Shown: in pieces, positions 4,281 through 22,865 of the stretch
How positions within the stretch are numbered: position 1 is the first letter of the stretch
How the letters are laid out: each line of letters starts with the position of its first letter
Assembly (NCBI GenBank): GCA_028748975.1
Contig: JAQTPI010000003.1
Span: 1-33,063 of the forward strand
Source: Patescibacteria group bacterium
GTDB taxonomy: Bacteria > Patescibacteriota > Patescibacteriia > UBA2196
DNA length: 33,063 nucleotides
Direction of reading: 5' to 3'
Notes under the pieces: generated by a model
The model's database searches: none
The model's input: the letters and a program-made list of their open reading frames with translations, nothing else
What the model was told of the DNA's origin: nothing
Made by a program: the position numbers and the translations under genes

Positions 4281-4311
4281 AAAAAAATCCACTCACTGGC
4301 GTGAGTGGATT
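4281..4311 (-). terminator. Terminator of the NAD salvage operon
   Basis: Perfect 11-bp stem AATCCACTCAC/GTGAGTGGATT with loop TGGC, followed by T7 on the minus strand. It begins 13 bases after the nadE stop, marking the 3' end of the long minus-strand operon. Confidence 0.85.
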
Positions 4312-4324
4312 AAAAGTTTATTGT

Positions 4325-5272
4325 TTAATCCAATTTGATGTCTTTGATTTCGGGCAGGCCAAGATCGCGGCGTGAAAGTGCGATCGTGCCACGGCGTTTG
4401 TAAGCGCCATTAATGGCCCGAGTCGCCAGATTTTTGACCAATTCCGGTCTGACATCAGAAACAGCCACTAGGTTGGACAATTGTTTGCGGTCACCATCCG
4501 GGTTGAAATGGTTTTGAATGAGGGTTAGTATGACCCGATCCAAAACCGGGTACGACGCACCGAGTTGGTCTTCGTCGCCACCGCTGGCGACCCCAAGGCC
4601 ATCGTCGGGCCTGGCAGCAATGATCTCTTGCGGCACGCCAAGATAGCGCGCGAGGTCATAGGCCTCGGATCCTTTGAGAATATTTTGAATGATGGCAAAA
4701 TCGCCCACATCGCCGCAGATGGTCCAAAAGGCCATCCAGTGTTCCGAGAGATTATCGGTGGAAAGCACCATGCCGTTCATCATCCGCGCGATGTGATAGA
4801 TGGTTATCATGCGCAGACGGGCTTTGATGTTGCCGGCCGCGATTTTCTTGGACCAATTCCATCCAGACAGGGTGAACAGAACACCATTTCCCCCGGTTTT
4901 TTTCAAAATGTCTTCGATTTGGATATCTAAACCAGAAACCCCGAGAACATCACGACGGAAAAAATCTTCTAGATACCGAAGGTCAACAAAAATTTCTTCG
5001 GCATTAAAACATCTGATGGCAGCGCGGCCCAATCGTTCCGCTTCGGGTTTTGAACCGCAGGGCAGAATGACACCAACCGAGGTAATGGGAAAACCGTTTT
5101 GTCGTCCCAAAATACAAACCTGCTCGACAAAACCCAAAGTCAAGGCGCTGTCGAGGCCGCCGGAAGAACCGGTCACCAAATAGTGAATATTATTTTCACG
5201 ACAATAGTCAAACGTCAATCTGGTGCCATTCTCCACCACTTTCTTTGCCTGTGCTTTTGTGAGGTGGTACAT
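4325..5272 (-). CDS. nadE: NH3-dependent NAD synthetase
   Basis: Last step of NAD synthesis: deamido-NAD (NaAD) + NH3 + ATP -> NAD + AMP + PPi, in the cytoplasm. The 315-residue protein has the ATP-pyrophosphatase P-loop SSGGLDSAL (residues 36-44), the dimer/NaAD region GNIKARLRMITIYHIARM and STDNLSEHW, and the C-terminal ARPDDGLG...DEDQLGASYPVLD segment. There is no N-terminal glutaminase (CN hydrolase) domain, so ammonia is the expected nitrogen donor. GGAGGAAAC directly before the ATG at 5272 supports the start. It is the last gene of the operon, 124 bases after the deoxyribosyltransferase-like/Nudix gene, and is followed by a strong terminator. It acts after PncA, PncB and NadD of the same operon. 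Confidence 0.93.
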   Translation of the reverse strand: MYHLTKAQAKKVVENGTRLTFDYCRENNIHYLVTGSSGGLDSALTLGFVEQVCILGRQNGFPITSVGVILPCGSKPEAERLGRAAIRCFNAEEIFVDLRYLEDFFRRDVLGVSGLDIQIEDILKKTGGNGVLFTLSGWNWSKKIAAGNIKARLRMITIYHIARMMNGMVLSTDNLSEHWMAFWTICGDVGDFAIIQNILKGSEAYDLARYLGVPQEIIAARPDDGLGVASGGDEDQLGASYPVLDRVILTLIQNHFNPDGDRKQLSNLVAVSDVRPELVKNLATRAINGAYKRRGTIALSRRDLGLPEIKDIKLD

Positions 5273-5354
5273 GTTTCCTCCTTGATTTAGGGTTTATTTT
5301 TAATTGTGAAATTTCCTCCTGCCAAGCGCCTGAATTCAAGCGACTGGAAGAAAG

Positions 5355-5390
5355 AGTGGTGGACGGAAATTTAGAATTCCGGCCACCACT
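5355..5390. other. Intergenic hairpin after the NDT-like/Nudix gene (copy A)
   Basis: AGTGGTGG ... CCACCACT 8-bp stem, with inner GGAA/TTCC pairing, starting 6 bases after the stop of the upstream gene. It is followed by TGCCAAGCGCCTG and a TCCTCC motif (a GGAGGA on the coding strand), a layout repeated at 6631. It could be an mRNA 3'-end stabiliser, a processing site or an attenuator; there is no long T run. Confidence 0.6.
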
Positions 5391-5396
5391 AAATGA

Positions 5397-6551
5397 TTAT
5401 GTAGAAAGAAGCACTGATGAAATTATTCCCAACATACTCCAATCAACAAATTTTCCATCAAGAATTTCGCCGAAAGTATATATTTCTGTATATGTCCTTT
5501 CGGTGTCTTCAATTACACCATGTGGAACACCAACCTGATCACGAAGCCAACATAATTCATCGTCCGTGATTTCGACGGAAAAAACATGAGCTTGGTGCGC
5601 CGAAAAAGTGGCGACCATTTGCCGACTCTGATGTACTTTTATGCGTCCAGCATCAATTTTAAGATCCGTTTCCTCGTGTAATTCGTCGGCTGCAATTTGC
5701 AAGATATTTCCCTTTGGTTTGAAAGATGAACCACCAGCCACCTCTCTGACATAGCCGTCGTCATTAGAAACCGGACTTCGAAATTCACGAATCAAGACGA
5801 TGGTCGAATCTTTCAGAACGGGTTCTTTTTTATACATTACGACAGTGGAAATGTCGGGGCGAGCAAGAATGACTTCGTTTGTTTTATGCCTTCCCTCTTT
5901 GGTGATATAGATGTCCACACGAAGAACCCAGAAAAAAACGAAATTTTTCGTGGGACCGACGCGGAAAGTCCATTCCACCTTGGCCCCACAAAGAACATTA
6001 CCAGCCTTTTTAAGGTTTTGGTACCACTGCTGAAAAGATGGCGTGTTCCAAATATGCAGAGGCACCTGGCACTCACCACCATTTCGCAAGGCACCATTGC
6101 CGATCATTTTTATGGCCAGTCCAACCAAGTCCGATAAATTATCGGCTTGTGGCACAAACCATTCTTTGGCCTTGTAAAAAAGATAGTTCATGTTTGGCGC
6201 GCCAGATGGAGCGCCGAGAACTATTTTCCCGGACTTAAACCATTCACCGTGTTCATGATTGGTGGTAAAACCGGGAAGTGTTTTCAAGTCACGCGGAATC
6301 CAAAAAAGGATGCAATCCGCGCGATTCAATCCCTGATCTTCCCAGGTAATCTGGTTGTTGTAATCGGGTCTTGCATTACCTTCTCTGGATTCAGGAATAA
6401 AAACAAGGCCATCATAACCCTGTTTTCTAAGAATTTCAATGGCTTCCGGCCGCCAAGACGTAACGTCTTTGGATCGAGGTGTTGGTCCGGCCAGAAAAAT
6501 ACTTTTTTCCATTGTTTCCGGAAACGCTTCGCCAGCATAAACAAGCTGCAT
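5397..6551 (-). CDS. Nucleoside 2-deoxyribosyltransferase-like domain fused to a Nudix hydrolase domain
   Basis: A two-domain cytoplasmic enzyme of 384 residues. Residues 16-130 match the nucleoside 2-deoxyribosyltransferase-like fold (KSIFLAGPTPR, SWRPEAIEILRKQGYDG, FIPESRE, ITWEDQGLNRADCILFWIPRD, TTNHEHGEW). Residues 200-384 form a Nudix domain with a variant Nudix box ending ADELHEETDL (glutamates E290, E293, E294 kept; the normally preceding Arg is Asp), after the element GYVREVAGG. Nudix enzymes of this type often cleave ADP-ribose or NAD-type pyrophosphates, and the other domain class cuts or transfers N-glycosidic bonds; the true substrates here are unknown. I chose the ATG at 6551 because AGGAGGAAG precedes it; the longer frame to 6689 runs over an intergenic hairpin and overlaps pncB. 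It sits between pncB and nadE in the NAD operon. Confidence 0.82.
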   Translation of the reverse strand: MQLVYAGEAFPETMEKSIFLAGPTPRSKDVTSWRPEAIEILRKQGYDGLVFIPESREGNARPDYNNQITWEDQGLNRADCILFWIPRDLKTLPGFTTNHEHGEWFKSGKIVLGAPSGAPNMNYLFYKAKEWFVPQADNLSDLVGLAIKMIGNGALRNGGECQVPLHIWNTPSFQQWYQNLKKAGNVLCGAKVEWTFRVGPTKNFVFFWVLRVDIYITKEGRHKTNEVILARPDISTVVMYKKEPVLKDSTIVLIREFRSPVSNDDGYVREVAGGSSFKPKGNILQIAADELHEETDLKIDAGRIKVHQSRQMVATFSAHQAHVFSVEITDDELCWLRDQVGVPHGVIEDTERTYTEIYTFGEILDGKFVDWSMLGIISSVLLST

Positions 6552-6630
6552 GTCTTCCTCCTGCAATTTGGGTTTTCGATTTTTAATTTCCTCCTGCCAA
6601 GCGCCTGTTGCCAAGCGATTAGAATAAGGA

Positions 6631-6663
6631 GTGGTGGACGGAGTTTTGAACCCCGGCCACCAC
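6631..6663. other. Intergenic hairpin after pncB (copy B)
   Basis: GTGGTGG...CCACCAC stem with inner GG/CC pairs, 14 bases after the pncB stop. The whole stretch 6585-6663 is homologous to 5310-5390 (TTTCCTCCTGCCAAGCGCCTG, then GTGGTGGACGGA), so this spacer has been duplicated within the operon. Confidence 0.6.
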
Positions 6664-6676
6664 CGTGTTGTTAATT

Positions 6677-7906
6677 TTAATAGACGCATTTTTCATTACG
6701 GTTTTCACTGTAGTCAAAAACCGTCATATAACGTTCTATTTCACTTTTAAGACCGATGGCTTTGGCGATGTTATCGGACAGTTTCACAGCCGGGCGATCC
6801 ATGGCCATGATGAGTTTAATAACCATGGAAATCGGAGTGAAACCAACATCGTTGCCAAGGTTGGTACCCCAGCCGAAGCTCATCTTGATGCGGCCTTGAA
6901 AATGATAATAAATTTTAAGTATCATTTCGACAGTCAGGCCGTCGGAAAAAACAATCATTTTGTCGCGCGGGTCAATGCCGAAATTCTTTAGGGTCTGGAT
7001 GGCCAGTTCGCCAAATTCAATCGGCTCCATGGAATCCTGGCGGAAACCCTTGCCGCGCTTTAATCTTTCAGAGAGCATGTCTTGGAAATAGGCGCGACTG
7101 CCAAAGGTGTCAGTCAACGCGATGGAGAGTTCATAGCCGTAAAAATTCCACCAATCGTCCAGTAATTTGATTGGCGACTGGCGCAATTTTTTGTCGTCAT
7201 CCCCGGCCATGGCGGCGTAAGCCGAAGCCAGCTCATGGGCGTTGGTGGCGGTTGATCTGATGCCTTTGGCCATGGCAAAATAGGTATCCGACGTGCCCCA
7301 AAGCTGATTGGGAATACGATCGATCATGATATCAAGCAGGTGGCTGTGCCAACTTTTTAAGGCACGGCGACGATGACAAAAATCGGAAACGAAGAGCCCG
7401 GGCTTGTCCTTGATGAGGTCAAGTTTGGGAAGTAATTTCTGCTCCCCAATCCGGAATAATTCCGCTTCAGTAATACCCTGCTGTTTCATCAAAGCACGGG
7501 TATTAAGTTCGGAGATGATGGCCAGAGTCTTGGTCTCGGGAAAAGTGGTAATTTCCCATGGGCCAAAAAATCTGATGCGGAAATCATCGCCAACGCGGAC
7601 GATTTCACGGTCAGGGCGTTCGGTGTTAGTCGCCAAAAAAATTAGATCATCCGCTGAATACATTTTTTTGTCGCCGCACCAAACCTGTTCCAGATAACTC
7701 AATTCTCTCACTGACGGGCGCAAACCGAGCATGTGATCCACCTGCTCTTTGAGTTCAACTATATCAATGTAACGAGCCAGGGGAATTTTGCTGCGATTAG
7801 TTAAAGCAAATTCCACCGGTACCCTTGGATAATGATAATGAATGAATTGGCCCATCAAAAACTTATAATCATCCATGTCAAGAAAACTGGTAATGATTGG
7901 TTCCAT
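6677..7906 (-). CDS. pncB: Nicotinate phosphoribosyltransferase
   Basis: Converts nicotinate + PRPP (with ATP) to nicotinate mononucleotide, the committed step of the Preiss-Handler route. The 409-residue protein shows the family marks SFLDMDDYKFLMGQFIHYHYP at the N-terminus, FCHRRRALKSWHSH, LWGTSDTYFAMAKGIRSTATNAHE (the GTS..A...G...GT.aHe motif), DSGD-like FRQDSMEP, and the phosphate-binding FGWGTNLGND near residues 345-354 with KLSDNIAKAIG after it. The length fits bacterial PncB. The ATG at 7906 lies 3 bases after the stop of the ADP-ribosylglycohydrolase gene, with GGAG inside that gene's end, so translation is probably coupled. The nicotinate comes from the nicotinamidase encoded upstream. 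Confidence 0.94.
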   Translation of the reverse strand: MEPIITSFLDMDDYKFLMGQFIHYHYPRVPVEFALTNRSKIPLARYIDIVELKEQVDHMLGLRPSVRELSYLEQVWCGDKKMYSADDLIFLATNTERPDREIVRVGDDFRIRFFGPWEITTFPETKTLAIISELNTRALMKQQGITEAELFRIGEQKLLPKLDLIKDKPGLFVSDFCHRRRALKSWHSHLLDIMIDRIPNQLWGTSDTYFAMAKGIRSTATNAHELASAYAAMAGDDDKKLRQSPIKLLDDWWNFYGYELSIALTDTFGSRAYFQDMLSERLKRGKGFRQDSMEPIEFGELAIQTLKNFGIDPRDKMIVFSDGLTVEMILKIYYHFQGRIKMSFGWGTNLGNDVGFTPISMVIKLIMAMDRPAVKLSDNIAKAIGLKSEIERYMTVFDYSENRNEKCVY

Positions 7907-7909
7907 TGA

Positions 7910-8959
7910 TCACTCCTTAGTTATGAGTTCAAAAAATTTTTGGCCGAGGACAATGGCTTCTTTGGCCGAAGGACAACCGTCAATTAATTTCTTTGGAATG
8001 CCGGAAAGTCCGATGTTGGCGCCGATCATGGCGCCGGCCATGGCGGCATTGGTGTCGGTGTCGCCACCGGCATTGACTGCTTCCAAAACTCCGTTTTCAA
8101 ATCCAATCGGATGCCGCAGAAAGACGCCGATGGAGAAAACCACTGAATCCACGCAAATTCCGCCGGTACCAATTAGGTTTTTCAGAACAAAAAGCTCATA
8201 TTCCGAATCACCCCTTGTTCCCAAAATACCATAAAGAGTAGCGAGCTTGGCGGTGAAAGACGGAACTTTTCGTTCCACTTCTAGACCGTCAATTTCTTCC
8301 AATAAATCTTTGAGTAAAAAAATACTTACTGTATGATCAAAAATGTCTTGGGTTTGGGACAAAACTCTACTAATGATTCGGGCCACGGCATAGGCGGAAA
8401 GCCAGGAACGCGTGTCGCTGTGCGTTAAATAGCCGAGATCGCGCACCAGGTTGCGCAATATTTTTTCATCAGAGTCAAAAGCGAAAAGAGCCAGGGGCGC
8501 CACTTTCATAGCCACGCCATTGCCAGCTCCGCGATTGCCTTCTTTGACGTCGGGAACGGTAAAAGGACTTCTGCCCTGCCGGCCGCCGGATTCAAAATAT
8601 TGGCGCAGTTCTGCCACGGCTTCGGCAGTGGTTTTACCCCAGCCGAAACGCGTTTTTTCCATGGCCAAAACATGCATCTTGGCGAGATGAACGGGATCAA
8701 AAGCACCAAGATTCAAAAGCGATTTAGCCACCACTTCGGTCAGCTGCCAATCGTCGGTGGTATCACCGGGTTTTAAATTACCAGTGCCACGAATTTTCTT
8801 CTGGATAGGGGCAAGATATCCTTGCACACCATGATTGCCAATGGCCTGAATAATTTCTTGGTCGCTCATCATTTCCACGGGCATGCCGAGAGCGTCGCCA
8901 ATGGCCACGCCAGCCAAACAGCCCTGAAATTTTTCCAAAATTATTTCATTCGCTTTCAT
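7910..8959 (-). CDS. ADP-ribosylglycohydrolase (DraG/ARH family)
   Basis: A 349-residue all-helical hydrolase that removes ADP-ribose from modified proteins, nucleic acids or small molecules; the exact target is unknown. Metal-binding motifs are present: GDALGMPVE (21-29), GDTTDDWQL (65-73) and the C-terminal NAGGDTDTNAAMAGAMIGA (296-314), whose aspartates bind the two Mg ions. The ATG at 8959 overlaps the nadD stop (ATGA), so the two genes are translationally coupled; the longer frame to 9052 would lie inside nadD and is rejected. Within the NAD operon it can release ADP-ribose, which is the usual ligand of NrtR regulators, and it returns ADP-ribose for breakdown by the Nudix enzyme downstream. 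Confidence 0.92.
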   Translation of the reverse strand: MKANEIILEKFQGCLAGVAIGDALGMPVEMMSDQEIIQAIGNHGVQGYLAPIQKKIRGTGNLKPGDTTDDWQLTEVVAKSLLNLGAFDPVHLAKMHVLAMEKTRFGWGKTTAEAVAELRQYFESGGRQGRSPFTVPDVKEGNRGAGNGVAMKVAPLALFAFDSDEKILRNLVRDLGYLTHSDTRSWLSAYAVARIISRVLSQTQDIFDHTVSIFLLKDLLEEIDGLEVERKVPSFTAKLATLYGILGTRGDSEYELFVLKNLIGTGGICVDSVVFSIGVFLRHPIGFENGVLEAVNAGGDTDTNAAMAGAMIGANIGLSGIPKKLIDGCPSAKEAIVLGQKFFELITKE

Positions 8960-9567
8960 TTTTTTCCCTTTCTTTGGTAAAGATTCTGTTGTTTGATGTA
9001 TTTTTCCACTTCGGGCGTAACCAGACCGGTGATGGGTTTGCCGGCGGCGCATAAATTTCTGATTTCAGTGCTGGAGCCGTAAATATTCAAGGGCAAACAG
9101 GTGGCATGCGGCGGCAAATCTTTTTTTTCAATCTCGTAATCAGCACGGCTGATGACTAGAAAATTAAGTTTTTGCCAAAGTTCTTTACCACGATACCAAC
9201 TGGTTTGAATTTCGGATTCACTTTGAGCACCGCCTTTGATTAAATCAGTGCCAACCACATGAGAGATGTGGCCGAGAAGAGAAAATCTTTCTTGCAGATC
9301 CCAGGTTCTGGTAAAATCTTCCCTTAAGATATCAGAAAAATTAAGCCTGATTTTGGGCGCGCCGCCAAAAGTAAGGTGGCACATTATTTTGCGCTGTTGA
9401 GGCGAAGCCCGATGTTTCCCCTTTTGCGGTTCGGGACGAATGCCGCAAGGTATAATCACCAGGTCTCTGACAAAAGGCAGGGCGCTGACGGCTTTAACAG
9501 CCGCCAAATGTCCATTGTGGGGCGGATCAAAACTGCCACCGTAAATTGCGATGGTTTCTTGATTCAT
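8956..9567 (-). CDS. nadD: Nicotinate-nucleotide adenylyltransferase
   Basis: Transfers AMP from ATP to nicotinate mononucleotide to give NaAD. The 203-residue protein has the nucleotidyltransferase signature IYGGSFDPPHNGHLAAV (residues 8-24; GxFxPxHxGH) and the C-terminal YGSSTEIRNLCAAGK motif (ISSTxIR type), plus VVGTDLI in the middle. I chose the ATG at 9567 because CAGGAGGAAATTAAA precedes it; the upstream frame to 9684 is spacer containing a hairpin. The stop overlaps the start of the ADP-ribosylglycohydrolase gene by four bases. It links PncB to NadE in the same operon. Confidence 0.93.
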   Translation of the reverse strand: MNQETIAIYGGSFDPPHNGHLAAVKAVSALPFVRDLVIIPCGIRPEPQKGKHRASPQQRKIMCHLTFGGAPKIRLNFSDILREDFTRTWDLQERFSLLGHISHVVGTDLIKGGAQSESEIQTSWYRGKELWQKLNFLVISRADYEIEKKDLPPHATCLPLNIYGSSTEIRNLCAAGKPITGLVTPEVEKYIKQQNLYQRKGKK

Positions 9568-9670
9568 TTTAATTTCCTCCTGAATTTTTGAGTTTTGAAT
9601 TCCCCACCAATTTGATGGAGAGAAAGCTGCTGCCGAAAAATTCAGAAGCAATTTTCTAAAAAAGTTTCCG

Positions 9671-9701
9671 GGAAGGAAGAGCAATGATTGCTCTTCCTTC
9701 C
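9671..9701. other. Perfect 15-bp intergenic hairpin between the vWA gene and nadD
   Basis: GGAAGGAAGAGCAAT-G-ATTGCTCTTCCTTCC. On the minus strand it is followed by CGGAAACTTTTTT, so it may act as a partial terminator or attenuator, or as a processing/stability hairpin inside the operon. It begins 33 bases after the vWA stop. Confidence 0.7.
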
Positions 9702-9734
9702 GCGGAAGGTTGTGAATGTAATTCTAAATAAAAA

Positions 9735-10607
9735 TTAAACGATGTCTTCTTCGGCATCAGCCGGCGGAACGGCAGAGGCGGCTTGTACCGCGTTCGTGCC
9801 CTTGCTGGCCGATACCCGGCTCATCACCCGCATCATCCGACGGAAACGGCTTTTGTATTCCTTGTCGGTTTCGCTCTTTTTTTTGGCGAACACTTGGGTG
9901 TTTTCCGGGTCAAAGCCCAGTTCCCGGGCATAACCCTCCGGATCGGCCAGGCCGCCTTTGGTCTGAAAGTAGAAGAAAACGAACCGAACCAGGTCTTTCC
10001 GGCTCCCGGTGATAACCGATTGCACGGGCTGGAGATCATTCGGTGGTTCATTGTTGGCGCCGTCAGTTAGGACAATAACGTCCACTTCCGGCTGGATGCC
10101 GTATTCTTTTCTCAGTTCACCGGCATAGGCCATGGCTTTAGCGCAGCCGTCGATGATGGCCGCGTGAAGCGCAGTTGCCCAGCCACGAGAGGGATTGTAT
10201 TCGGCGCTGGTCAGCAACGGAAGCTTTTCCAATTCATGGAAATAGATTGTCTTGCCGTTTTCCGGCCTGCCCCAAATCTGCGTGATGTCGGAGGAAAAAG
10301 ACGAACCGCCGATACGCAGAGTGCTGATGTCGTCTTCACGCGCCTCTTTGATGGCAGGGACCAGGTCTTCGTTAAACCCCTTCAAAAGCAAAGGACCAAC
10401 GTCGGCCATTGAGGGCGAGCGGTCAAGAATATAGTAGACCACCCGAAGGCCGCCACCCATAGAAAGTTCGTCAAGAGTCACGGCCGTGCCCTGAATCATG
10501 GGCGCGGTGATTTGCTTGGACGCAAGCGAGATGATGCTGGAGCCGTCCGCATCTTTGAAAAAAGCGGCGATGTCGGCTGGGACCACCAGTCCCGGTTTTG
10601 CTGTCAT
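9735..10607 (-). CDS. von Willebrand factor A domain protein, TerY-like
   Basis: A 290-residue cytoplasmic protein with one vWA domain. The metal-ion-dependent adhesion site is complete: DRSPS at residues 62-66 (DxSxS), T145 in GWATALHAA, and D182 in VLTDGANNE. There is no signal peptide or membrane helix, so it is an intracellular adaptor rather than a surface adhesin. In TerY-P systems such a vWA protein occurs with a PP2C phosphatase and a protein kinase bearing a zinc ribbon, and exactly these two genes open this operon. Start chosen at the ATG of 10607 because AAGGAGAAAAAC precedes it. Base composition is clearly GC-richer than in the kinase gene upstream. The disordered Ala/Pro-rich tail (AASAVPPADAEEDIV) is of unknown use. 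Confidence 0.82.
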   Translation of the reverse strand: MTAKPGLVVPADIAAFFKDADGSSIISLASKQITAPMIQGTAVTLDELSMGGGLRVVYYILDRSPSMADVGPLLLKGFNEDLVPAIKEAREDDISTLRIGGSSFSSDITQIWGRPENGKTIYFHELEKLPLLTSAEYNPSRGWATALHAAIIDGCAKAMAYAGELRKEYGIQPEVDVIVLTDGANNEPPNDLQPVQSVITGSRKDLVRFVFFYFQTKGGLADPEGYARELGFDPENTQVFAKKKSETDKEYKSRFRRMMRVMSRVSASKGTNAVQAASAVPPADAEEDIV

Positions 10608-10632
10608 GTTTTTCTCCTTGGTTGATGGTGAT

Positions 10633-10665
10633 TTCGAGGCGCCTGGTAGACCCAAGCGCCTCGAA
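10633..10665. other. Intergenic hairpin between pncA and the vWA gene
   Basis: Perfect 10-bp stem TTCGAGGCGC/GCGCCTCGAA, 9 bases after the pncA stop. On the minus strand no T run follows, so a simple terminator is unlikely; on the plus strand T8 follows at 10668. It fits the pattern of hairpins right after stop codons in this operon. Confidence 0.6.
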
Positions 10666-10673
10666 TGTTTTTT

Positions 10674-11723
10674 TTACGCGTTGACGAAAGGAGCGTCGTG
10701 AGTGAAGAAACGGACGCCGGTTTTTTTGGCCCGCTCATTCAGCGCCACCACATGGGCGGCGTTCGGAATGATGGGCGCGGTGCCGTCGGTCATGAAAGCG
10801 AGTTTGGCCAGATAGGCTGTGTCGCTCAAATTGTCCATGGTCTGTTTCTTCATATAATAATCGCAGAAATCTTCGGCCACGCCGGAGAATTCAATGTTCA
10901 AGAACTCTTCAAAAGTCTTGATGACTCCCGACTGGAATCTGCCCTGGGGATGACTGTCGTCTTTCTTGCAGGGTTCCAGCGGTCCGAACCAATCGGTGGT
11001 CATGATGTGACCCTTATTGATCGGAATGGGCTGAAGGGACCGGGCGCCCGCCATGAAGGAGATGGTCTCGTCCAAAAGCGGGTGCAAATTGGCGCTGAAA
11101 GTGCCGAGCATGCAGTGAGGCACGAAAATCCAGATGTCGCCCTGGCCGGTCTTCTGCAGATGCTTCCAGTAATCCACGGCTTCCAGGGGATTGAATTTGG
11201 GCTGATAAAACCCGATATCATAGGTGCCGCCTTTGCCATCAAAACCATAGACGCGAAAGATGGCCTTTTTTTCATCGACCAGGGTGGCCAGAGCCGCCCG
11301 GCCATGACCACTCAGATCGAGCGGCAGGCCCTTGTGGTCGCGCCAGTAATAGTCGAAGGAGATGTGCTGGCGGGTGTGACCGTCCTGGGAATAGATGAGT
11401 CCGGAAAAATAGTCGGTGACGGTGCCGTTGATCAGGCGCACGCAGACTTTTAAAACAACTTCGTTGGTGCCGGTGACTGGCAATTCTCCGAAAGGATCGT
11501 CGCGGAAGCCGTTTTGCAGATCGGTCAGCATGGCAAGATTTTTGATGCCAGCCTTGATCAGGGCTTCGGCCGATTTCAAATGATGCGCTAAAGCGTACTC
11601 CACCCCTTCACGATAGGCGCCGTTCAAATCAGGGGCAAAGCCCTGAAAAGCTTTTTCCGGCTGGAAAAATCTGGGCGTATAAACGAGCGGGGCGTGTTTG
11701 GGAATGACTGGTGTTGCTGCCAT
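10674..11723 (-). CDS. pncA: Nicotinamidase-like cysteine hydrolase (isochorismatase fold)
   Basis: Probable nicotinamidase: nicotinamide + H2O -> nicotinate + NH3, feeding PncB. The 349-residue protein keeps all the expected site residues: catalytic D68 (MLTDLQNGF), metal ligands D114 and H116 (SQDGH) and H203 (VPHCMLG), catalytic K237 (INKGHI), and catalytic C287 (GVAEDFCDYY). It is longer than the usual PncA (about 180-220 residues), with an extra N-terminal part of about 60 residues and inserts between the motifs, so a related amide substrate cannot be excluded. Start at the ATG of 11723, preceded by CAGGAGAAAAAACC. Gene symbol is inferred from motifs and context: pncB, nadD and nadE follow in the same operon. 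GC content is visibly higher than in the kinase gene. Confidence 0.8.
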   Translation of the reverse strand: MAATPVIPKHAPLVYTPRFFQPEKAFQGFAPDLNGAYREGVEYALAHHLKSAEALIKAGIKNLAMLTDLQNGFRDDPFGELPVTGTNEVVLKVCVRLINGTVTDYFSGLIYSQDGHTRQHISFDYYWRDHKGLPLDLSGHGRAALATLVDEKKAIFRVYGFDGKGGTYDIGFYQPKFNPLEAVDYWKHLQKTGQGDIWIFVPHCMLGTFSANLHPLLDETISFMAGARSLQPIPINKGHIMTTDWFGPLEPCKKDDSHPQGRFQSGVIKTFEEFLNIEFSGVAEDFCDYYMKKQTMDNLSDTAYLAKLAFMTDGTAPIIPNAAHVVALNERAKKTGVRFFTHDAPFVNA

Positions 11724-11821
11724 GGTTTTTTCTCCTGGTTTAGTTTGAGATGACGAGAAAATAGGCTGGAAAAACAAAAAGATTCTGACGCAACCTCCTT
11801 TCCTTAAAAAATACAGAAAAA

Positions 11822-13771
11822 TTATTTTTTGGGACTGAGGCTAAAAATACTGTTACGGCGAACGACAATAATTTTATTGTTAAAACGCAACAAGCGATCG
11901 TCGGCCATAATTAAGCCTTTGGTTCCCGCGACCGGCGAATAACGCTGGCTAATCAATTCGTGTTTAACTAGTCCCTCGGTGCTTAAATGTAAAACGCTAG
12001 CGGATTGGAACAGCTTGCCCTGCAGTTCTTGCCAGTAGGCAAAGCCTTCTTCACTGTCGTTTAAAAGAATGTCTTGCTGTATTTGACCAGTTAAATCAAT
12101 AAGCGAAAACCGGATAAAATCTTTGCCGCGATATTTTGTTTTTCTGATCAATAAAACATTGGTTTTATTAAAATAGACAGAAAAATCTTCCAGTTTTTCT
12201 CCGCTTCTTGTGGCTGGCAAAGCGACATGATAATTAATGGTTTTTTCTTCATCACCAACCAATAAAAACCAGCGCAGGTCGCGCAGAGCGCCGTCATAAC
12301 CAAAAATGATTTCTTGGTCAGCGCCGGAGGTGCGGTCAACCGTAAACCATGTTTGCGTACTGAAAACTTCTGTCACGGGGTTTTCCAAAAACATTTTGCC
12401 AAAGAAACTGCCCCGCATCAGCATATTACCGGCAATCCGATATAAAAATCGGCTGGAAGTATCAAACATGGCGGTCTGACTGCGAAAAGAGACGGTGTTG
12501 GTCTCGTCAGTAAAAATCAGACTGTTGTTTTTTATCTGATACATTTCCAGTTTAACCGGCGCCGCGGCAGCGGGATCGGAACATTTCACCAAACAATCGG
12601 TGAAAAAACGATAGCGCGCGCCCGGCTCAGCTGCAAGGGCGGAAGAAATGACGGAAACGTGTTTGTGCTGGTCAATAACGACCACTTGCAGTTTATCATC
12701 AACACGGCAGACCAGATGCAGTTTTTCTTGCACCACCTGAGCAAAAAGCAGGGTGCCGCCGGTTTTAAAAATTTCTTCCACCAGGAGCTGCGCAACTTTG
12801 ATTTCTATCATGGTCTTTTCATGGCACTTGGGACAACTCTTTCTGGATTCGTGGTATTGCGCCCCGCAATTCGGACAAATCACCAGTTCGGCGCTGAAGC
12901 GGCGAAGCAGGCCGGTGTCCAAAGGGTCAATGGTTTTCCTTTTTAGGATTTTAACAACCGCGTCCATCAAGTCATCGGAAAGAAGTTCGGGCGGCGGCAA
13001 GATGTCAGGATAACTGACATCGCTGTCAAAAATAGTGCTACCGTTTTTTGTTCTTTCCTGCAGACTGCGGAAACGCGGATGAAGCCCCATGCGAAAGGGA
13101 TGGGCTCCGGAAAGCGCCATCAGCACAAACATCACGGTAAAAGAAAAACGATCGTGATGCGGCTGATGAAGAATGAATTTTCCGCCACTGACAAGATTGG
13201 GATAGAGATCGGGATGGGCAAAAAGTTCGGTGGTGGCCAGGCAAGGATACTCGGGTGAATAACCCCAGCTATCCGTATCCACGAAAGCCCTTCTGGTTAA
13301 ATCAGCTGAAATAAGAATACTGCCGGTGTTGATGTCGCCCATGACCACTTGGGAACCGTGAATAATGGGCACATCGTCAAAAACGTCGGCGAAAAGCAAA
13401 GAAATTTTACCCAAATTGATGTCGTTAGCCAACCGAAAATCTTCTTTCAGTAACTGCATCATTTTATAAAAACCACTCGGCACGCGACGCATTAAAAAAC
13501 CAATGACCTGATGGCGTTCGCTGTAAGCGGCCTTAAGGGCCATAATAAAATGCGGAGGAAAATTGAAAGTTGAATGGCAAATATAGTTGATTTTCCTTTT
13601 TCTAAAAGCGGCCAGTTTCGGACCATCGGGATCGTGAGGATCGGGTTTGTGAAAAAGTTTGACGCAAAAATCAGGGTCGGGCGGAAAAATATAAACACTA
13701 CCCTCGGAACCGCCGCCTAATTTCTGTTTGGGATCGTCTTCAAAAGGTTGGCGGTCAATATAATAACGCAT
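11822..13771 (-). CDS. Protein kinase-like protein with zinc ribbon and long C-terminal beta-rich region
   Basis: A 649-residue protein. Residues 15-290 form a Ser/Thr-kinase-like domain: glycine loop KLGGGSEGSVY (17-27), ATP lysine K38 (CVKLF), catalytic loop VMGDINTGSILI (D146; the usual Asn at D+5 is Ser151), and DTD in place of DFG (AFVDTDSWG, D165). A four-cysteine zinc ribbon follows (CPNC...CPKC, C299, C302, C313, C316). The last 320 residues are beta-strand-rich and could be a propeller-like sensor; no family recognised. Kinase plus zinc ribbon, PP2C and vWA is the composition of the TerY-P triad. The start at 13771 is 2 bases after the PP2C stop, with GGAGT overlapping that stop, so the two are coupled. 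Substrate unknown. Confidence 0.82.
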   Translation of the reverse strand: MRYYIDRQPFEDDPKQKLGGGSEGSVYIFPPDPDFCVKLFHKPDPHDPDGPKLAAFRKRKINYICHSTFNFPPHFIMALKAAYSERHQVIGFLMRRVPSGFYKMMQLLKEDFRLANDINLGKISLLFADVFDDVPIIHGSQVVMGDINTGSILISADLTRRAFVDTDSWGYSPEYPCLATTELFAHPDLYPNLVSGGKFILHQPHHDRFSFTVMFVLMALSGAHPFRMGLHPRFRSLQERTKNGSTIFDSDVSYPDILPPPELLSDDLMDAVVKILKRKTIDPLDTGLLRRFSAELVICPNCGAQYHESRKSCPKCHEKTMIEIKVAQLLVEEIFKTGGTLLFAQVVQEKLHLVCRVDDKLQVVVIDQHKHVSVISSALAAEPGARYRFFTDCLVKCSDPAAAAPVKLEMYQIKNNSLIFTDETNTVSFRSQTAMFDTSSRFLYRIAGNMLMRGSFFGKMFLENPVTEVFSTQTWFTVDRTSGADQEIIFGYDGALRDLRWFLLVGDEEKTINYHVALPATRSGEKLEDFSVYFNKTNVLLIRKTKYRGKDFIRFSLIDLTGQIQQDILLNDSEEGFAYWQELQGKLFQSASVLHLSTEGLVKHELISQRYSPVAGTKGLIMADDRLLRFNNKIIVVRRNSIFSLSPKK

Positions 13772-13773
13772 GC

Positions 13774-14601
13774 TTAGACTCCTTTTTCGGTATGAGGCAC
13801 GGTATTAATTTTTTCCCAAGTGACGGCACTGCAATCATCCTTCATTTTTTCCGGAAAATCATTAAACATGTTATTTAGCCAAATTTGCAGACCCAACAGA
13901 TTTTCCCTTTGAAAAGAAAAAAGAAGATCTTGATTGGGTGCTTCAGATAAAAGGCTTTTTAAACCGTCAGTGGCGATGACCAAACGATTAATTTCTTCAA
14001 CGCGAAAATTATTGATGGCAAAGCCAACACCGGCTTGATTGATGGAAACCACGGGGTAACTCGGGTTATCGTTTTGGTCAATAATCGTTAAATCATTGTT
14101 AACCAGAATCAACCCGTCACCGGCAGAAAAAGTGGTAATATTTTCTTCGTCGGAGATAAAGCCCAAAAGAGTAGCGGCTAAATAATCATTATGAAAACGA
14201 GTGGCGCCATCCCAGCCTTCTCGTCCTTTTAGAACAAAAGGATATTGCCAGAGAATATGCGTGGGCATTATTTTTCCGCTTAAATCTATCAGAAATTCGG
14301 TAATGGTTGGAAAAAGAATTTTGGGAATTTCCAAAATATTAATCCCGGCACAAATCAGTTCCTGAATCCTTCTAAAAGCGTAAACCACCAAAAGATTGGC
14401 TCCAACTTCATTATGGGAAAATAAAGGATTTCCCGTACAGCCGTCGGACACCAAACCAAGATGAAAATTTTTGCCAAAGGCGGAAACGGAAAAAGATTCG
14501 CTTAAAACAGCGTCTTGATTATTGAGGTTCAGAATTCGATGCTTGGAACCCTGTTTGGTGCCAGAACGCATCAAAGTTGTTACTTTTTCGCTCTTACTCA
14601 T
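13774..14601 (-). CDS. PP2C-family serine/threonine phosphatase
   Basis: A 275-residue cytoplasmic metal-dependent phosphatase. PP2C motifs are visible: NLNNQDAVL near the N-terminus (the RxxNEDxx region), LVSDGCTGN (the DG metal motif), YLAATLLGFI (the ATLL motif), FSAGDGLILV (GD), VIATDGLKSLL (DGL), and DDCSAVTWEK (DDCS, in place of DD(N/A)S/T). The start at 14601 has a very strong AAAGGAGG. It is the first gene of the operon and is directly coupled to the kinase gene, so the two probably set and remove phosphates on common targets. A promoter lies at 14739-14767 and an NrtR-type operator at 14786-14805. The leader is about 130 bases and contains a long hairpin (14684-14720). Confidence 0.88.
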   Translation of the reverse strand: MSKSEKVTTLMRSGTKQGSKHRILNLNNQDAVLSESFSVSAFGKNFHLGLVSDGCTGNPLFSHNEVGANLLVVYAFRRIQELICAGINILEIPKILFPTITEFLIDLSGKIMPTHILWQYPFVLKGREGWDGATRFHNDYLAATLLGFISDEENITTFSAGDGLILVNNDLTIIDQNDNPSYPVVSINQAGVGFAINNFRVEEINRLVIATDGLKSLLSEAPNQDLLFSFQRENLLGLQIWLNNMFNDFPEKMKDDCSAVTWEKINTVPHTEKGV

Positions 14602-14682
14602 GTTTCTTCTACCTCCTTTTTTATTTAGAATGAGTTTTTAAGGTTCTTTCCAAACGGTGTGTTCCTTATAAAATGTATCAGA

Positions 14683-14720
14683 TTAGCCAATACAGACAAA
14701 AAATTGTCAAATATTGGCTA
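14683..14720 (-). other. Long hairpin in the leader of the NAD operon
   Basis: On the minus strand TAGCCAATA ... TATTGGCTA pair (9 bp), with an inner GACA/TGTC pair and a T-rich loop. It lies between the promoter and the PP2C start. The arms contain the word TTAGCCAA also seen in the palindromes at 15557 and 28312, here in the outward arrangement. Confidence 0.5.
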
Positions 14721-14738
14721 TTTTTATAAGAATATATA

Positions 14739-14767
14739 ATCTTAGCAAATCAGTTAAGTTTTGTCAA
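14739..14767 (-). promoter_or_regulatory. Promoter of the NAD salvage/TerY-P-like operon
   Basis: On the minus strand TTGACA (14762-14767), a 17-base spacer, then TAAGAT (14739-14744). Expected RNA start near 14732. Confidence 0.65.
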
Positions 14768-14785
14768 CTTTTGTTTATTATTATG

Positions 14786-14805
14786 GTGTATATCTTACAC
14801 TAACT
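14786..14805. promoter_or_regulatory. NrtR-type operator upstream of the NAD operon
   Basis: GTGTATATCTTACACTAACT, an interrupted palindrome (GTGT...ACAC) matching 17 of 20 bases with the site over the nrtR promoter at 15503-15522 read on the other strand. It lies about 20 bases upstream of the -35 box of the operon promoter. Assignment to NrtR is inferred from position and shared sequence. Confidence 0.6.
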
Positions 14806-14818: not shown

Positions 14819-15493
14819 TTAGAGGATCTGAACGACAGCGGGGCGGCGGCTGATAAACTCATATAATTCGGCTGGGCGGAAGGCCCTCCCCCTTCTTTCC
14901 TCGCCAGTCTTTTTGACCAGTTTCAGGCTAAAAATCTTCTTGCGGAAATTTCTCTTATCCAATTTTTTATCTAAAATTATTTCATAAACAGCCTGCAAAT
15001 CACTTAAAGAAAAATGTTTAGGCAAGAGGCTGTAAATTATATTGGTGTAGCCCAGTTTGGCTTGCAGGCGCTCTTTAGCCAAAGCAACAATTTCGCTGTG
15101 ATCATAGGCTAGAGGCGGTAATTTATTAACCGGAAACCAACCCACACCGGCATATTCTTGGCTTGTTTTCAGCGCCAGATTTTCACTCGGCACCAGGGCA
15201 AAATAGGCCACGGAAACGACCCGGCCCAAAGGATCGCGCTTAACTTTGCCAAAAGTATAAAGCTGTTCCAAATAGACATTTTTGAGGCCGGATTTTAAAA
15301 GCAGATGCCTTTGGGCGGATTGCTCCAGGGGTTCCTCGGGATTAACCAAACCGCCGGGCACAGCCCAACAGGCCTGAAAGGGTTCTTTTTTCATCTTAAT
15401 CAAAAGGACTTGCAATTTATCGTCTTTAATGGTGAAAATAACCACGTCGGTGGCCAGAACCGTGAACTTAAATTTTTTCTCAACTTTGGCCAT
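14819..15493 (-). CDS. nrtR: NrtR-type transcriptional regulator of NAD metabolism (Nudix + winged helix)
   Basis: A 224-residue DNA-binding regulator. The N-terminal Nudix-fold domain (residues 8-145) has VPGGLVNPEEPLEQSAQRHL (45-64), but the catalytic REUxEE core reads RHLLLK, so the glutamates that bind Mg are missing and it should sense rather than cleave its ligand. The C-terminal part (about 150-224, SLSDLQAVYEIILDKKLDKR and NFRKKIFSLKLVKKTGEERR) is the winged helix. In studied NrtR proteins ADP-ribose releases the repressor from DNA. Start chosen at the ATG of 15493 because the frame upstream runs through the promoter. A promoter and a matching palindromic operator lie right in front, so it is probably autoregulated. 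The NAD salvage operon begins 217 bases downstream on the same strand. Confidence 0.9.
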   Translation of the reverse strand: MAKVEKKFKFTVLATDVVIFTIKDDKLQVLLIKMKKEPFQACWAVPGGLVNPEEPLEQSAQRHLLLKSGLKNVYLEQLYTFGKVKRDPLGRVVSVAYFALVPSENLALKTSQEYAGVGWFPVNKLPPLAYDHSEIVALAKERLQAKLGYTNIIYSLLPKHFSLSDLQAVYEIILDKKLDKRNFRKKIFSLKLVKKTGEERRGRAFRPAELYEFISRRPAVVQIL

Positions 15494-15502: not shown

Positions 15503-15522
15503 AGTTAGTGTCTTATATACAC
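15503..15522. promoter_or_regulatory. NrtR-type operator overlapping the nrtR promoter
   Basis: AGTTAGTGTCTTATATACAC, an interrupted palindrome (AGTGT...ACAC) placed directly after the -10 box, covering the expected RNA start. It is 17/20 identical to the site at 14786-14805 in opposite orientation. Confidence 0.65.
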
Positions 15523-15956: not shown

Positions 15957-17075
15957 TTAATTTGTTTTTTCCTTAATAATTAAGGGGTTGAAAAAACGAG
16001 TGATTTCGGCGCCGGTGAAAGAGTCGCGGCCGGAAATTTGAATGCTTTCCAAAAGTTTTATGTTTTTGCCAATCTCTTTGTCTGTGGGCGTAAATTTTAT
16101 TTTGAAATTGGCCTCGCCCGAATCCGAGGTGGCAAGGGTGCCAATCTGCCAAGTTATTTCTTGTTTTTCTAAATCATATTCCAGCGGCGCGCCAAGATTG
16201 ACGGCAATTTGATTGGTCCACTCCATGCCCGGCGCCAGCTTGACTATTAATTTTGCGTTTTCAATTTTATTAATATTATTGGAAAGGGTTAAAAATACGC
16301 GGAGGGCGGTTTCCGAGTCAACTTGCGGCGGCCACGCTCCCCCACCAATTTGTTCGCCTTCGGCGGTGTAGAAAGCGTAAGACGGCGCCACGGAAAAATC
16401 GCTGTTAATTTTGACGCGATTTTCGGGCGAATCTTCGCTGAAGCTTTTGCCATCAAGAAAACCGGAAACAAAAGCCTGGGTGGCGATGTTTGGGTTGGTA
16501 GTGGAGATTTCTTTTTTTACAAAAAAATTGAAATCAAAAGAAATTTCTTCGCCGGGTTTGAAATTTTTAAGCGCTTCGTTTTCCGCCACGGTCCAAATTA
16601 AATTACCCTCGACAAATTTTCCTTTACTAATTAATGTTTTCTCATCCACAGCAGCGCCGTCTAGTTTTATTTTTACCTCCAGGTCGGTTAGTGGTGCCGC
16701 GGAATTATTTTTAAGAGTTAAAATATAGTTTAATTTTTCGCCGGGGTCGGCCACCAAATTATCTTTGTCATTAACAGCAAGGTTCATTTCCAATTTGGCC
16801 TGACTCGGATGAAAATAATTATTAACAAGGTCGGTAAAAGAAAAATTATTTTTTTTGAAGACCAAAATAAAGTTCAGAACGCAAAGTAAAATAATGACCG
16901 CCACAAAAAGCATGTCAACCAGTTTATGCGACTTGCGTTCGCGAGAAAGTTTCTCATATTTTTCTTTTAACGGCACAAACAAGTTAAGCGTGCGAATGTG
17001 GATGGGGCGCCGGGGAGTATTCTCTTTGGGTACAATCACTTCCTGTTTGGTTAGGTCGATTATTTTATCGGACAT
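15957..17075 (-). CDS. Membrane-anchored surface protein with DUF11-like beta domains
   Basis: A 372-residue protein with a cytoplasmic basic N-terminus of about 50 residues, one membrane helix (about 54-73, MLFVAVIILLCVLNFILVF) and a large outer part. The outer part has two Ig-like/DUF11-type beta domains: one with DPGEKLNYILTLKNNSAAPL and LTDLEVKIKLDG (about 108-205), and one with LRVFLTLSNNINKIENAKL and WTNQIAVNLGAPLEYDL (about 262-360). Such domains serve as stalks in wall or surface proteins. No catalytic motif is seen. It is read after the glycosidase-like gene on the same strand but is separated from it by a long AT-rich hairpin (17087-17249). Function unknown. Confidence 0.75.
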   Translation of the reverse strand: MSDKIIDLTKQEVIVPKENTPRRPIHIRTLNLFVPLKEKYEKLSRERKSHKLVDMLFVAVIILLCVLNFILVFKKNNFSFTDLVNNYFHPSQAKLEMNLAVNDKDNLVADPGEKLNYILTLKNNSAAPLTDLEVKIKLDGAAVDEKTLISKGKFVEGNLIWTVAENEALKNFKPGEEISFDFNFFVKKEISTTNPNIATQAFVSGFLDGKSFSEDSPENRVKINSDFSVAPSYAFYTAEGEQIGGGAWPPQVDSETALRVFLTLSNNINKIENAKLIVKLAPGMEWTNQIAVNLGAPLEYDLEKQEITWQIGTLATSDSGEANFKIKFTPTDKEIGKNIKLLESIQISGRDSFTGAEITRFFNPLIIKEKTN

Positions 17076-17086
17076 AAAATATTTTT

Positions 17087-17249
17087 AATTTCCAATTTCC
17101 AAGCTCCAATTTCCAAACAAATTCCAATGACCAAAATTTCAAATTCCAAAATGTTGGCGCTCCGCGCCAATTATTTGAGTTTTGGAATTTTATATTTTGA
17201 ATTTGTTTGTTATTTGGAATTTGTTATTTGGTGCTTATTTGGAAATTGT
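17087..17249. repeat. Long AT-rich imperfect inverted repeat (TTCCAATTTCC type)
   Basis: A stem of roughly 75 bases per arm, with AATTTCC/AATTCCAA units on the left and TTGGAAT/GGAAATT units on the right, folding around TTGGCGC-TCC-GCGCCAA at 17154-17169. It separates two surface-protein genes. It is a non-coding repeat of a type common in CPR genomes. Confidence 0.7.
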
Positions 17250-17268
17250 ATCTTGTTTCTTGATTATT

Positions 17269-19326
17269 CTATTCCATAGCAATTATTTCTTCTTCTCCAT
17301 CGCCATCCACATCGGCGGAGCTGACTTTGACGCCGTTGCGTTTGTTTTTATCAAAAGCAAAAAATCCTTTGCCTTGCGGGGTGCCGGTGATATTAAAAAT
17401 TCTGACGTGCGGACCACCGCCGAAGCCCGCACCAGTAATTATCTCATCTTTATTATCTTTGTTCAAATCAAGCGCGGCCACATTAACCCCGCCGCGAAAG
17501 CCAATCGCGTAGGCTAAAAAAGTAGAATTTATTTCTTTACCGTCAGCATTAAAAATTTTAACTTCCGGTTTTTGGCCACTACCCGCGCCAGCAATTATTT
17601 CATCGCTGCCGTCACCATTAACGTCGCCCGCGGCCACATTGACGCCGCCGCGCAAGTTTTTATCAAAAGCGAAAAAGCCTTTGTTCAACAACTTGCCATT
17701 CAAATCAAAAATCCGAACATGCGGACCGCCGCCTTTTTTAGTACCGGTGATGATTTCTTTTTTTTCATCGCCATTAATGTCGCCGATAGCCAGGCGAATG
17801 CCGCGATTATAGGTTGCGGTATAGGGATTAAAAGAAGAAATTTTAGAGCCATCAGCACTGAAAATTTGGACCAAAGAAGCGCCGGCGGAAATTGTTTCGT
17901 TTTGTCCGTCATTGTTTAAATCAGCAATTAAAACTTCATCGCCGCCGGAAAAGCGCGGGTCATAGGAATAAAAACCGGGTCGCTTGGTCTGCCCCCAAGA
18001 ATCAAAGACGCGCACGAAAGAACCGTTACCAAAAACAGCACCGGTTAAAATTTCCAATTTACGCAAGAGAAAAATTCCGTCATTGGCCGAGAGAATCACC
18101 TGATTGACAATTTGTCCGTTATTGGTGCTTGGGTCCTGAAAACCGCTAATCTTTTCATAAGTGGCATCGGTTAAATTGACGGTTTGTGATTTACTCGTGG
18201 AATTGACGAGCACGATGCCGTTTTCAAAATCACGGCGCCAAACGCCATTTTCATATTGCGTGGCCCGACTATTTAGCAAGTTTTTCGGCTCGCCAATGGG
18301 ACGGCCTAAATTGACACTGTATTCGTCATACCACCAAAGCTGGGAGTGGTCGTTCGTGCCAAAATCAAAAGCAAAATAACCGCCGCCCATAAGTGCCGAG
18401 CCCAAACCAAAACGCACTTTTTGAAAATCATTTTGGTTGCCGGTGTTATTTGTATTGGGATTTAAGACAATGGTTTCGGGGCTATATTTGATTTCTTTTC
18501 CCAAATTGGCGTAATCGCGCATGGAACCGGCCCAACCGCCAAGCCACGCATGCGGCCAGGTTTCATAAAGCCGGCCATTAATAAAATCATGGGCGTAGCT
18601 GGAACTGTTAACCATAATTATTTTACTGGGGCCGAGTAGCCGACGAGTTTCTTTCAGCATAGTCATGACGCCATTTTTCCATTCGCTGTCGGCGAAAGTT
18701 TTTTCATCAATGATGCCGTCATTATTGATGTCAACGTTGCCATTGTTGGTGTCTTTAATGCTTTCCAAAGCGTTGTCAAAAAACACGCCGTCCCAGCGCC
18801 CGCTGTCAATTAATTCGCGTTTGACAAAAGCCGGTAAAAAAGTATTAAATTTTTGGCCATTAATCTCGGGACAAAATCTGGTGAGATTGAAAGAATTGTT
18901 GCCGGGCCAAATGGAATGAATATTTCCAGAACCGTCTTTTAAATACCAGGCGTCATTAATTTGGCTTAACATTTTATGCCAAGGGCCATTCGCGCTTTCT
19001 AAATTTATATAATTTTGCATGGGAAATTCCATGGTGGAAAGATAGGCGATGATTTTTATTTTGGGATTAAGGGCACGAAGCGAGGAAAAAATTTCCGGAT
19101 TGGTGTCCTGAACTTGCATGCCTAAGATTACTAAATCCCATTTGGCAAGTTCAGTAATTTCACTGCCGGAAATTGGCGTTTTGAGATAATAGTTGGCTAA
19201 TTTAGGTTTGCCATCAGCGCCAAAAATGTCCGCTTGCGGCAATAAAAAAAGCACTGCCAAAAGCAATAAGGCGGCGTTTAAAAAGCCGTTGCGTGGAGTG
19301 TTGTAGTTTTTGAAGTTTAGGTTCAT
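17269..19326 (-). CDS. Secreted putative glycoside hydrolase (GHL15/GH114-like) with five FG-GAP repeats
   Basis: A 685-residue secreted protein. A signal peptide lies at about 14-36 (FLNAALLLLAVLFLLPQADIFGA). Residues 42-420 look like a TIM-barrel glycosidase of the GHL15 kind: KLANYYLKTPISGSEI, WDLVILGMQ, KIIAYLSTMEF, SGRWDGVFFDNALESI (probable active-site D), KIIMVNSSS, MGGGYFAFDFG. Residues 430-685 hold five FG-GAP/VCBS-type repeats with calcium-loop motifs DLNNDGQNE, DINGDEKKE, DVNGDGSDE, DLNKDNKDE and DVDGDGEEE, separated by GGGPHVRIF-type strands, so a beta-propeller-like part is likely. It may cut or bind surface polysaccharide. Start at the ATG of 19326, only a few bases from a divergent promoter at 19330. 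Confidence 0.82.
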   Translation of the reverse strand: MNLNFKNYNTPRNGFLNAALLLLAVLFLLPQADIFGADGKPKLANYYLKTPISGSEITELAKWDLVILGMQVQDTNPEIFSSLRALNPKIKIIAYLSTMEFPMQNYINLESANGPWHKMLSQINDAWYLKDGSGNIHSIWPGNNSFNLTRFCPEINGQKFNTFLPAFVKRELIDSGRWDGVFFDNALESIKDTNNGNVDINNDGIIDEKTFADSEWKNGVMTMLKETRRLLGPSKIIMVNSSSYAHDFINGRLYETWPHAWLGGWAGSMRDYANLGKEIKYSPETIVLNPNTNNTGNQNDFQKVRFGLGSALMGGGYFAFDFGTNDHSQLWWYDEYSVNLGRPIGEPKNLLNSRATQYENGVWRRDFENGIVLVNSTSKSQTVNLTDATYEKISGFQDPSTNNGQIVNQVILSANDGIFLLRKLEILTGAVFGNGSFVRVFDSWGQTKRPGFYSYDPRFSGGDEVLIADLNNDGQNETISAGASLVQIFSADGSKISSFNPYTATYNRGIRLAIGDINGDEKKEIITGTKKGGGPHVRIFDLNGKLLNKGFFAFDKNLRGGVNVAAGDVNGDGSDEIIAGAGSGQKPEVKIFNADGKEINSTFLAYAIGFRGGVNVAALDLNKDNKDEIITGAGFGGGPHVRIFNITGTPQGKGFFAFDKNKRNGVKVSSADVDGDGEEEIIAME

Positions 19327-19329
19327 GAC

Positions 19330-19357
19330 TTGACAAATTTTTATGGTTTGCTATAAT
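19330..19357 (+). promoter_or_regulatory. Consensus promoter of the 75-aa gene
   Basis: TTGACA (19330-19335), 16-base spacer, TATAAT (19352-19357). The leader that follows, up to AAGGAGG, is related in sequence to the leader at 31863-31917. Confidence 0.85.
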
Positions 19358-19407
19358 GGATGTAGTAGGAACAACTCGCAATTTAATCAACCAACAAGGA
19401 GGTAGCC

Positions 19408-19635: not shown

Positions 19636-19663
19636 CTTTCGCGAACCAATTGTCTTGTATTTC

Positions 19664-19695
19664 AAGCCACCCGCTTATAGCGATGTGGCTTTTTT
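19664..19695 (+). terminator. Terminator of the 75-aa gene
   Basis: AAGCCAC-C-CGC-TTATA-GCG-AT-GTGGCTT followed by T6, then ATTTGTCAAAA. The stop codon of the convergent glycosyltransferase gene lies at the edge of the T run. Confidence 0.75.
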
Positions 19696-21393: not shown

Positions 21394-21416
21394 AGAATGT
21401 CTGTATTTTTCATTAT

Positions 21417-22856: not shown

Positions 22857-22865
22857 TTTTTTGAT

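Follow-up and report, generated by a model that had tools for sequence, protein, structure and literature searches.

Bacterial immunity often ends in the depletion of nicotinamide adenine dinucleotide (NAD), to which phages respond by making NAD. A stretch of 33,063 nucleotides from a Patescibacteria group bacterium (contig JAQTPI010000003.1 of assembly GCA_028748975.1; in the following the window) raises the question why the genes of an NAD salvage route should be interspersed with those of a Ser/Thr kinase, a PP2C phosphatase and a vWA protein. The locus comprises ten minus-strand genes from nrtR to nadE. Nine of them, spanning 4281-14805 from PP2C to nadE and followed by a strong terminator, had been reported in an earlier note on this DNA, and all are present by domain searches, as is a stem followed by a T run; the tenth, nrtR, lies directly upstream and had been overlooked. 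The reading favoured here, with a probability of roughly 0.6, is that of an ADP-ribose-inducible operon for rebuilding NAD, the first committed enzyme of which would be under phospho-control.

A conserved module of four genes

The core of the system is a module (the quartet) of a PncA-like nicotinamidase, a vWA protein, a PP2C phosphatase and a kinase, the tail of which resembles a beta-propeller. A first search of phage records with the PncA-like protein gave three matches, all three flanked by vWA, PP2C and kinase genes. The PncA-like gene was found in 47 viral loci by a wider scan, and 43 of them carry the full quartet. The quartet is absent from 29 further loci, reached through the NDT-Nudix gene, on comparable large viral contigs, and from 35 ordinary NadE loci of Patescibacteria. 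Detection of the viral loci relied on alignments including phage members, a mixed 25-member PncA alignment being too diverse for the contig scan; scans of the viral contigs with the single vWA or PncA query of the window gave no match, since both window copies are very divergent. Among 380 sampled genomes of the phylum, eight possess the PncA-like gene and six of these the quartet. Furthermore, about 10 of the 80 best loci in the genome collection show the quartet in the window order PP2C-kinase-PncA-vWA, which is shared by Patescibacteria including Ca. Collierbacteria, Chloroflexota including Ktedonospora, Polyangiaceae (Myxococcota) and delta-proteobacteria. Most phages have the order PncA-vWA-PP2C-Kin.

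The four proteins show correlated pairwise distances, with r of 0.73-0.88 over 46 loci, a value reached in none of 2000 permutations and therefore as expected of a jointly inherited unit. On the PncA-like tree the presence of the triad of kinase, PP2C and vWA is clustered yet requires about 12 changes, so the triad has been gained or lost repeatedly; the window protein forms a long branch of uncertain placement. Chance neighbourhood, a recent mobile copy and a general neighbour of NAD genes were considered as explanations and rejected by the controls (0/29, 0/35 and co-divergence), a single recent mobile copy also by the low identities (about 20-30%) among the loci.

A TROVE/Ro60 gene adjoins the quartet in several contigs (L005 2255-3706; L075, L079, L080), one of them from human faeces, and links the module to genes of the RNA-repair type.

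The nicotinamidase and its three partners

The catalytic residues D68, K237 and C287 and the metal ligands D114, H116 and H203 of the PncA-like protein are invariant in an alignment of 32 relatives. Its model (pLDDT 91.5) has nicotinamidase or pyrazinamidase chains as the 13 best PDB matches, with TMt mostly about 0.75, and the protein fails the curated nicotinamidase family (21.9 bits, cut-off 174). Residues and predicted fold thus point to a divergent subfamily of nicotinamidases.

Searches with Pfam kinase models gave no match for the kinase, the fold of which was seen via AlphaFold and Foldseek. The GxEG loop, K38, D146, N148 and D165 are invariant across 24 relatives. Its zinc ribbon consists of two CxxC motifs, CPNC and CPKC; of 46 kinases, 10 carry such a ribbon, for the most part cellular forms. 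The C-terminal all-beta part, modelled at moderate confidence only, matches the beta-propellers of clathrin and DDB1. In the PP2C protein the DG motifs are kept.

Predicted regulation by an NrtR-family protein

The product of nrtR scores 162.9 bits against the NrtR equivalog NF050029, under the cut-off of 400, and resembles the solved structures of NrtR (3gz5, 4.8e-33) and of BtAraR (5bs6, 3.9e-41). Read directly from the sequence, its Nudix box GGLVNPEEPLEQSAQRHLLLKSGL is without the catalytic glutamates, the usual state in NrtR sensors. Since the box is degenerate, the protein probably acts as a sensor rather than as an enzyme.

Two identical copies of GTTAGTGTnnnATATACAC are present, one before nrtR, next to its promoter TTGACA-18-TACTAT, and one before PP2C, next to the promoter-like site TTGACA-17-TAAGAT. 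In shuffles of the window 0.03 matches are expected even at three mismatches, and the 904-kb genome holds no exact copies besides these two. Over 200 loci with a total of 3.5 Mb, 16 of the 18 matches with at most two mismatches lie upstream of NAD or triad genes, two of the 16 being the window sites from which the motif was defined; such upstream regions make up 2.2% of the 3.5 Mb, and each of 60 shuffled motifs scores at most two there. The motif precedes nrtR, PP2C, pncB, nadD and stand-alone pncA in L094, L096, L100, L103, L104, L105, L108, L110, L217 and L221, which ties the triad genes, not the enzymes alone, to the NAD regulon.

In three loci of Chloroflexota (L105, L108, L110) NrtR-type operators lie immediately 5' of stand-alone PncA-like genes. 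This suggests that NrtR control of the PncA-like nicotinamidase may be widespread.

Coupling to NAD synthesis and alternative explanations

The enzyme set from nicotinamide to NAD is complete in the window (PncA-like, PncB, NadD and NadE), as domain matches and the residues and fold of PncA bear out. NAD genes stand in the same run as the quartet in the window and in L097; whole or near-whole sets (PncB, NadE, quartet, NadD and NrtR, some with the ADP-ribosylglycohydrolase, ARG) occur on the phage contigs L042, L047, L052, L084, L222 and L223 and in the Patescibacteria L094 and L097. NadE was found in 15 of 18 large phage records picked for their PncA-like gene and, among 16 control phage records, in both carriers of that gene and in 2 of the 14 non-carriers. 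The overall contrast, 17 of 20 large phage records against 2 of 14 (Fisher 6e-5), is approximate because a different NAD-related gene served to select the control records, some of which are fragments.

The completeness of this set had already been stated in the earlier note, and the integration of the triad with the enzymes, also claimed there, is supported by the common order PP2C-Kin-PncA-vWA in other phyla, by whole-operon relatives in Patescibacteria and huge phages and by the shared operators. The note had staked its proposal on gene order being kept in relatives, which it is; the search for co-occurrence in related genomes that it had suggested yielded, besides the six quartets, the near-whole sets of L094 and L097. 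The connection it drew to NAD loss agrees with the NrtR operators and the ADP-ribose-handling genes. The partner of the triad had to be revised: the triad is joined to the NAD route, but at its core it is paired with the nicotinamidase rather than with the pathway as a whole.

Several observations weigh against an inducible, phospho-controlled NAD-rebuilding operon, of which phosphorylation and enzyme activity are predicted features. Residue 151 of the window kinase is Ser, at a position of the catalytic loop where almost all relatives carry a metal-binding Asn, and the activity of this kinase may be altered. Most PncA-like genes of Chloroflexota stand alone, and 67 of the 80 best loci are without vWA, which makes the triad dispensable for the nicotinamidase. 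The operator pattern was not found at the phage loci, and operator 2 sits on the 5' side of the -35 element, an odd position for simple repression. Among solved structures the regulator comes closest to the arabinose-responsive BtAraR, the ligand of which differs; ADP-ribose as ligand therefore rests on context and on analogy with the NrtR family, where the Streptococcus sobrinus NrtR represses the NAD salvage gene pncB and ADP-ribose reverses this (PMC12735969). Finally, 32 of the 43 viral quartets have no NadE, PncB or NadD in their flanks of about 10 kb, though NadE is usually found elsewhere in the record.

This last point also speaks for the most probable of the alternatives, unlikely as it is: the quartet would be a self-standing conflict or stress device, its nicotinamidase an effector or signal maker (it could, for example, take away nicotinamide, which inhibits NAD-cleaving enzymes), and the NAD genes secondary neighbours. 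The pairing with TROVE/Ro60 in some contigs and two shorter quartet records without NadE (L074, L080) would fit such a device. The NadE contrast among phage records speaks against it, as do the operators, which precede the quartet, stand-alone pncA and pncB alike, and the common run of NAD genes and quartet in the window and L097.

Improbable is membership in the ARG-centred systems predicted to undo ADP-ribosylation with a Nudix-HTH regulator, a phosphatase and a vWA chaperone (Iyer et al. 2022, PMC9503650, section 3.8). The window does encode ARG, vWA, a phosphatase and a regulator of the Nudix-winged-helix type. However, ARG is the constant core of those systems, whereas it is accessory here, being present in 4 of 47 PncA-like clusters as against 41-43 for vWA, PP2C and kinase, and nicotinamidase and kinase belong to the core; in addition, the phosphatase is a PP2C coupled to a kinase, and four NAD synthesis enzymes are outside that description.

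An ordinary NrtR-regulated salvage operon with the triad as an accidental neighbour through horizontal transfer is very improbable, for although such operons are already known and the present one is accessory, its nearest relatives lacking a strong NadE and the vWA, the four genes, which co-diverge, return in the same order across several phyla and in phages, operators precede PP2C and not the enzymes alone, and identities of about 20-30% exclude one recent mobile copy.

Proposed mechanism

For an ADP-ribose-inducible NAD-rebuilding operon the following course can be proposed. Cleavage of NAD by NADases, ADP-ribosylation or other NAD-consuming reactions would release nicotinamide and ADP-ribose, and the latter, the presumed ligand, would pull NrtR from its two operators, so that the ten-gene unit is expressed. 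PncA, PncB, NadD and NadE would then convert nicotinamide to NAD via nicotinate, ARG would free proteins of their ADP-ribose, while the NDT-Nudix protein would probably degrade ADP-ribose or related nucleotides and thereby end the signal. The kinase, with zinc ribbon and beta-propeller as its sensor, the PP2C and a metal-dependent vWA adaptor would form a reversible switch. As the nicotinamidase is the constant partner of the triad, the triad may gate this enzyme, which would be the likely target of phosphorylation; the switch would most likely set the activity of PncA or its association with the remaining enzymes. In huge phages the module together with NadE would presumably secure the NAD supply when host defences deplete NAD.

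A broader claim, the odds of which are put slightly below even, is that this is an unrecognised signalling-controlled system for NAD reconstitution, which many huge phages have in common with Patescibacteria and with other bacteria. Its kinase/PP2C/vWA switch with the beta-propeller sensor would control a divergent nicotinamidase and allow NAD rebuilding only during an attack on NAD; in phages the system would add another type of counter-defence against NAD depletion.

Relation to known systems

The NrtR regulon of NAD salvage was reportedly described by Rodionov in 2008. The window shares with it a repressor of the NrtR family, NAD salvage targets and an operator at the regulator's own and the target promoters. 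The operator sequence is unlike the sites of Mycobacterium and Streptococcus (PMC6800001), and the kinase/PP2C/vWA triad, ARG and NDT-Nudix are additional.

The TerY-P triad consists of vWA, PP2C and a Ser/Thr kinase with a zinc ribbon (Anantharaman 2012 as summarised in PMC11090510). As proposed in the earlier note, the window matches it in composition, with vWA, PP2C and kinase-zinc ribbon in adjacent genes. Relative to that summary, the nicotinamidase as a constant fourth partner and the beta-propeller-like C-terminal domain of the kinase are new elements, and the zinc ribbon is missing from most phage versions of the module. Moreover, the PADLOC models gave no convincing match in the window or in three relatives, and matches to PHROGs are to families of unknown function only.

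NARP1 and NARP2 are phage pathways for rebuilding NAD. They and the phage NadV, NadM and NadR genes resemble the module as phage genes that rebuild NAD and are thought to counter NAD-depleting defences. Phage surveys describe NadV with NadM or NadR (PMC9503650, PMC7824862), whereas the enzymes of the window are PncB, NadD and NadE; the available parts of these surveys do not mention a deamidating PncA-PncB-NadD-NadE route with NrtR and triad.

The module can be classed as a variant of the TerY-P-like triads that is tied into an NAD regulon of the NrtR type. In the open-licence literature searched, outside of which the original TerY-P paper lies, no paper describes the combination of nicotinamidase, vWA and PP2C, in line with the earlier note, and the combination is probably new. 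It would bring into the contest over NAD a conserved, putative phospho-switch and a salvage route by deamidation, and it supplies the orphan triads of the TerY-P type with a concrete partner in metabolism that can be assayed in vitro. Furthermore, it becomes directly testable how Patescibacteria, which mostly lack NAD synthetase, are supplied with NAD.

Organization of the operon and its surroundings

The features of the locus are collected in Table 1. The starts given by the open reading frame tool lie too early for several genes, and the table gives the likelier ones for NadD, ARG, PncA, vWA, NDT-Nudix and NrtR. From PP2C to NadE the genes are separated by 2, 98, 66 and 167 bp, an overlap of 4 bp, and 3, 125 and 124 bp. 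Same strand, tight spacing and the terminator suggest that the operon is transcribed as one unit.

Table 1 Genes and predicted regulatory sites of the NAD locus (positions in the window)
Feature	Position	Strand	Evidence and remarks
nrtR, Nudix + winged-helix repressor	14819..15493	-	PF21906 3e-23; NF050029 8.5e-48
PP2C phosphatase	13774..14601	-	PF13672 1.4e-9; conserved partner
Ser/Thr kinase fold + zinc ribbon (C299-C316) + C-terminal beta-propeller-like domain	11822..13771	-	conserved residues; AlphaFold pLDDT 81; Foldseek
PncA-like nicotinamidase (predicted)	10674..11723	-	active-site residues, predicted fold
vWA protein, MIDAS DRSPS	9735..10607	-	weak PF00092; family hidden Markov model 3e-47
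NadD, nicotinate mononucleotide adenylyltransferase	8956..9567	-	TIGR00482 5.8e-25
ARG	7910..8959	-	PF03747 1.4e-54; start overlaps nadD stop
PncB, nicotinate phosphoribosyltransferase (NAPRT)	6677..7906	-	PRK05321 5e-101, PF04095
NDT-like glycosidase + Nudix-like fusion	5397..6551	-	PF15891 3e-12; Nudix half from sequence and phage G annotation
NadE, ammonia-dependent size	4325..5272	-	PF02540 6.7e-31, TIGR00552
Predicted NrtR operator 1	15504..15522		directly after -10 of nrtR promoter (15552-15523)
Predicted NrtR operator 2	14786..14804		5' of operon promoter (14767-14739)
Intrinsic terminator	4286..4311	-	11-pair stem, then T run

The source genome (904 kb, estimated completeness 99%) carries the locus on its contig C3 and contains only one strong NadE (PF02540 search) and one PP2C (PF13672 search). 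NadE matches in the nearest relatives (G001-G008) are weak at best; strong ones occur in only a few of 94 relatives and in 39 of the 380 sampled genomes of the phylum. Because of this scarcity the operon counts as accessory, and its acquisition is very likely. The window vWA as lone query found no match among 93 relatives.

About 20 contigs of huge phages (L007-L028 and L035, with gp334 of Bacillus phage G at L006 15007-16197) encode full-length homologues of the NDT-Nudix fusion at 42-51% identity, usually without the PncA module nearby. The fusion is perhaps a recycler of nucleotides or ADP-ribose. Near the NAD operons of two other Patescibacteria a paralogue resembling the adenylosuccinate synthetase PurA was recognised by eye (L217 7778-9076; L218 11937-13400 and 13363-14466), in one of the two adjoined by a vWA-like protein.

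No phage genes were seen among the proteins scanned at 15957-31663 of the window, next to the operon, and this part reads as ordinary chromosome. It is a region of the surface-polysaccharide type, with a glycosyl hydrolase-like protein with FG-GAP repeats, a glycosyltransferase, a Wzy-type ligase, GNVR and laminin-G-like proteins, and in addition an adenylate kinase.

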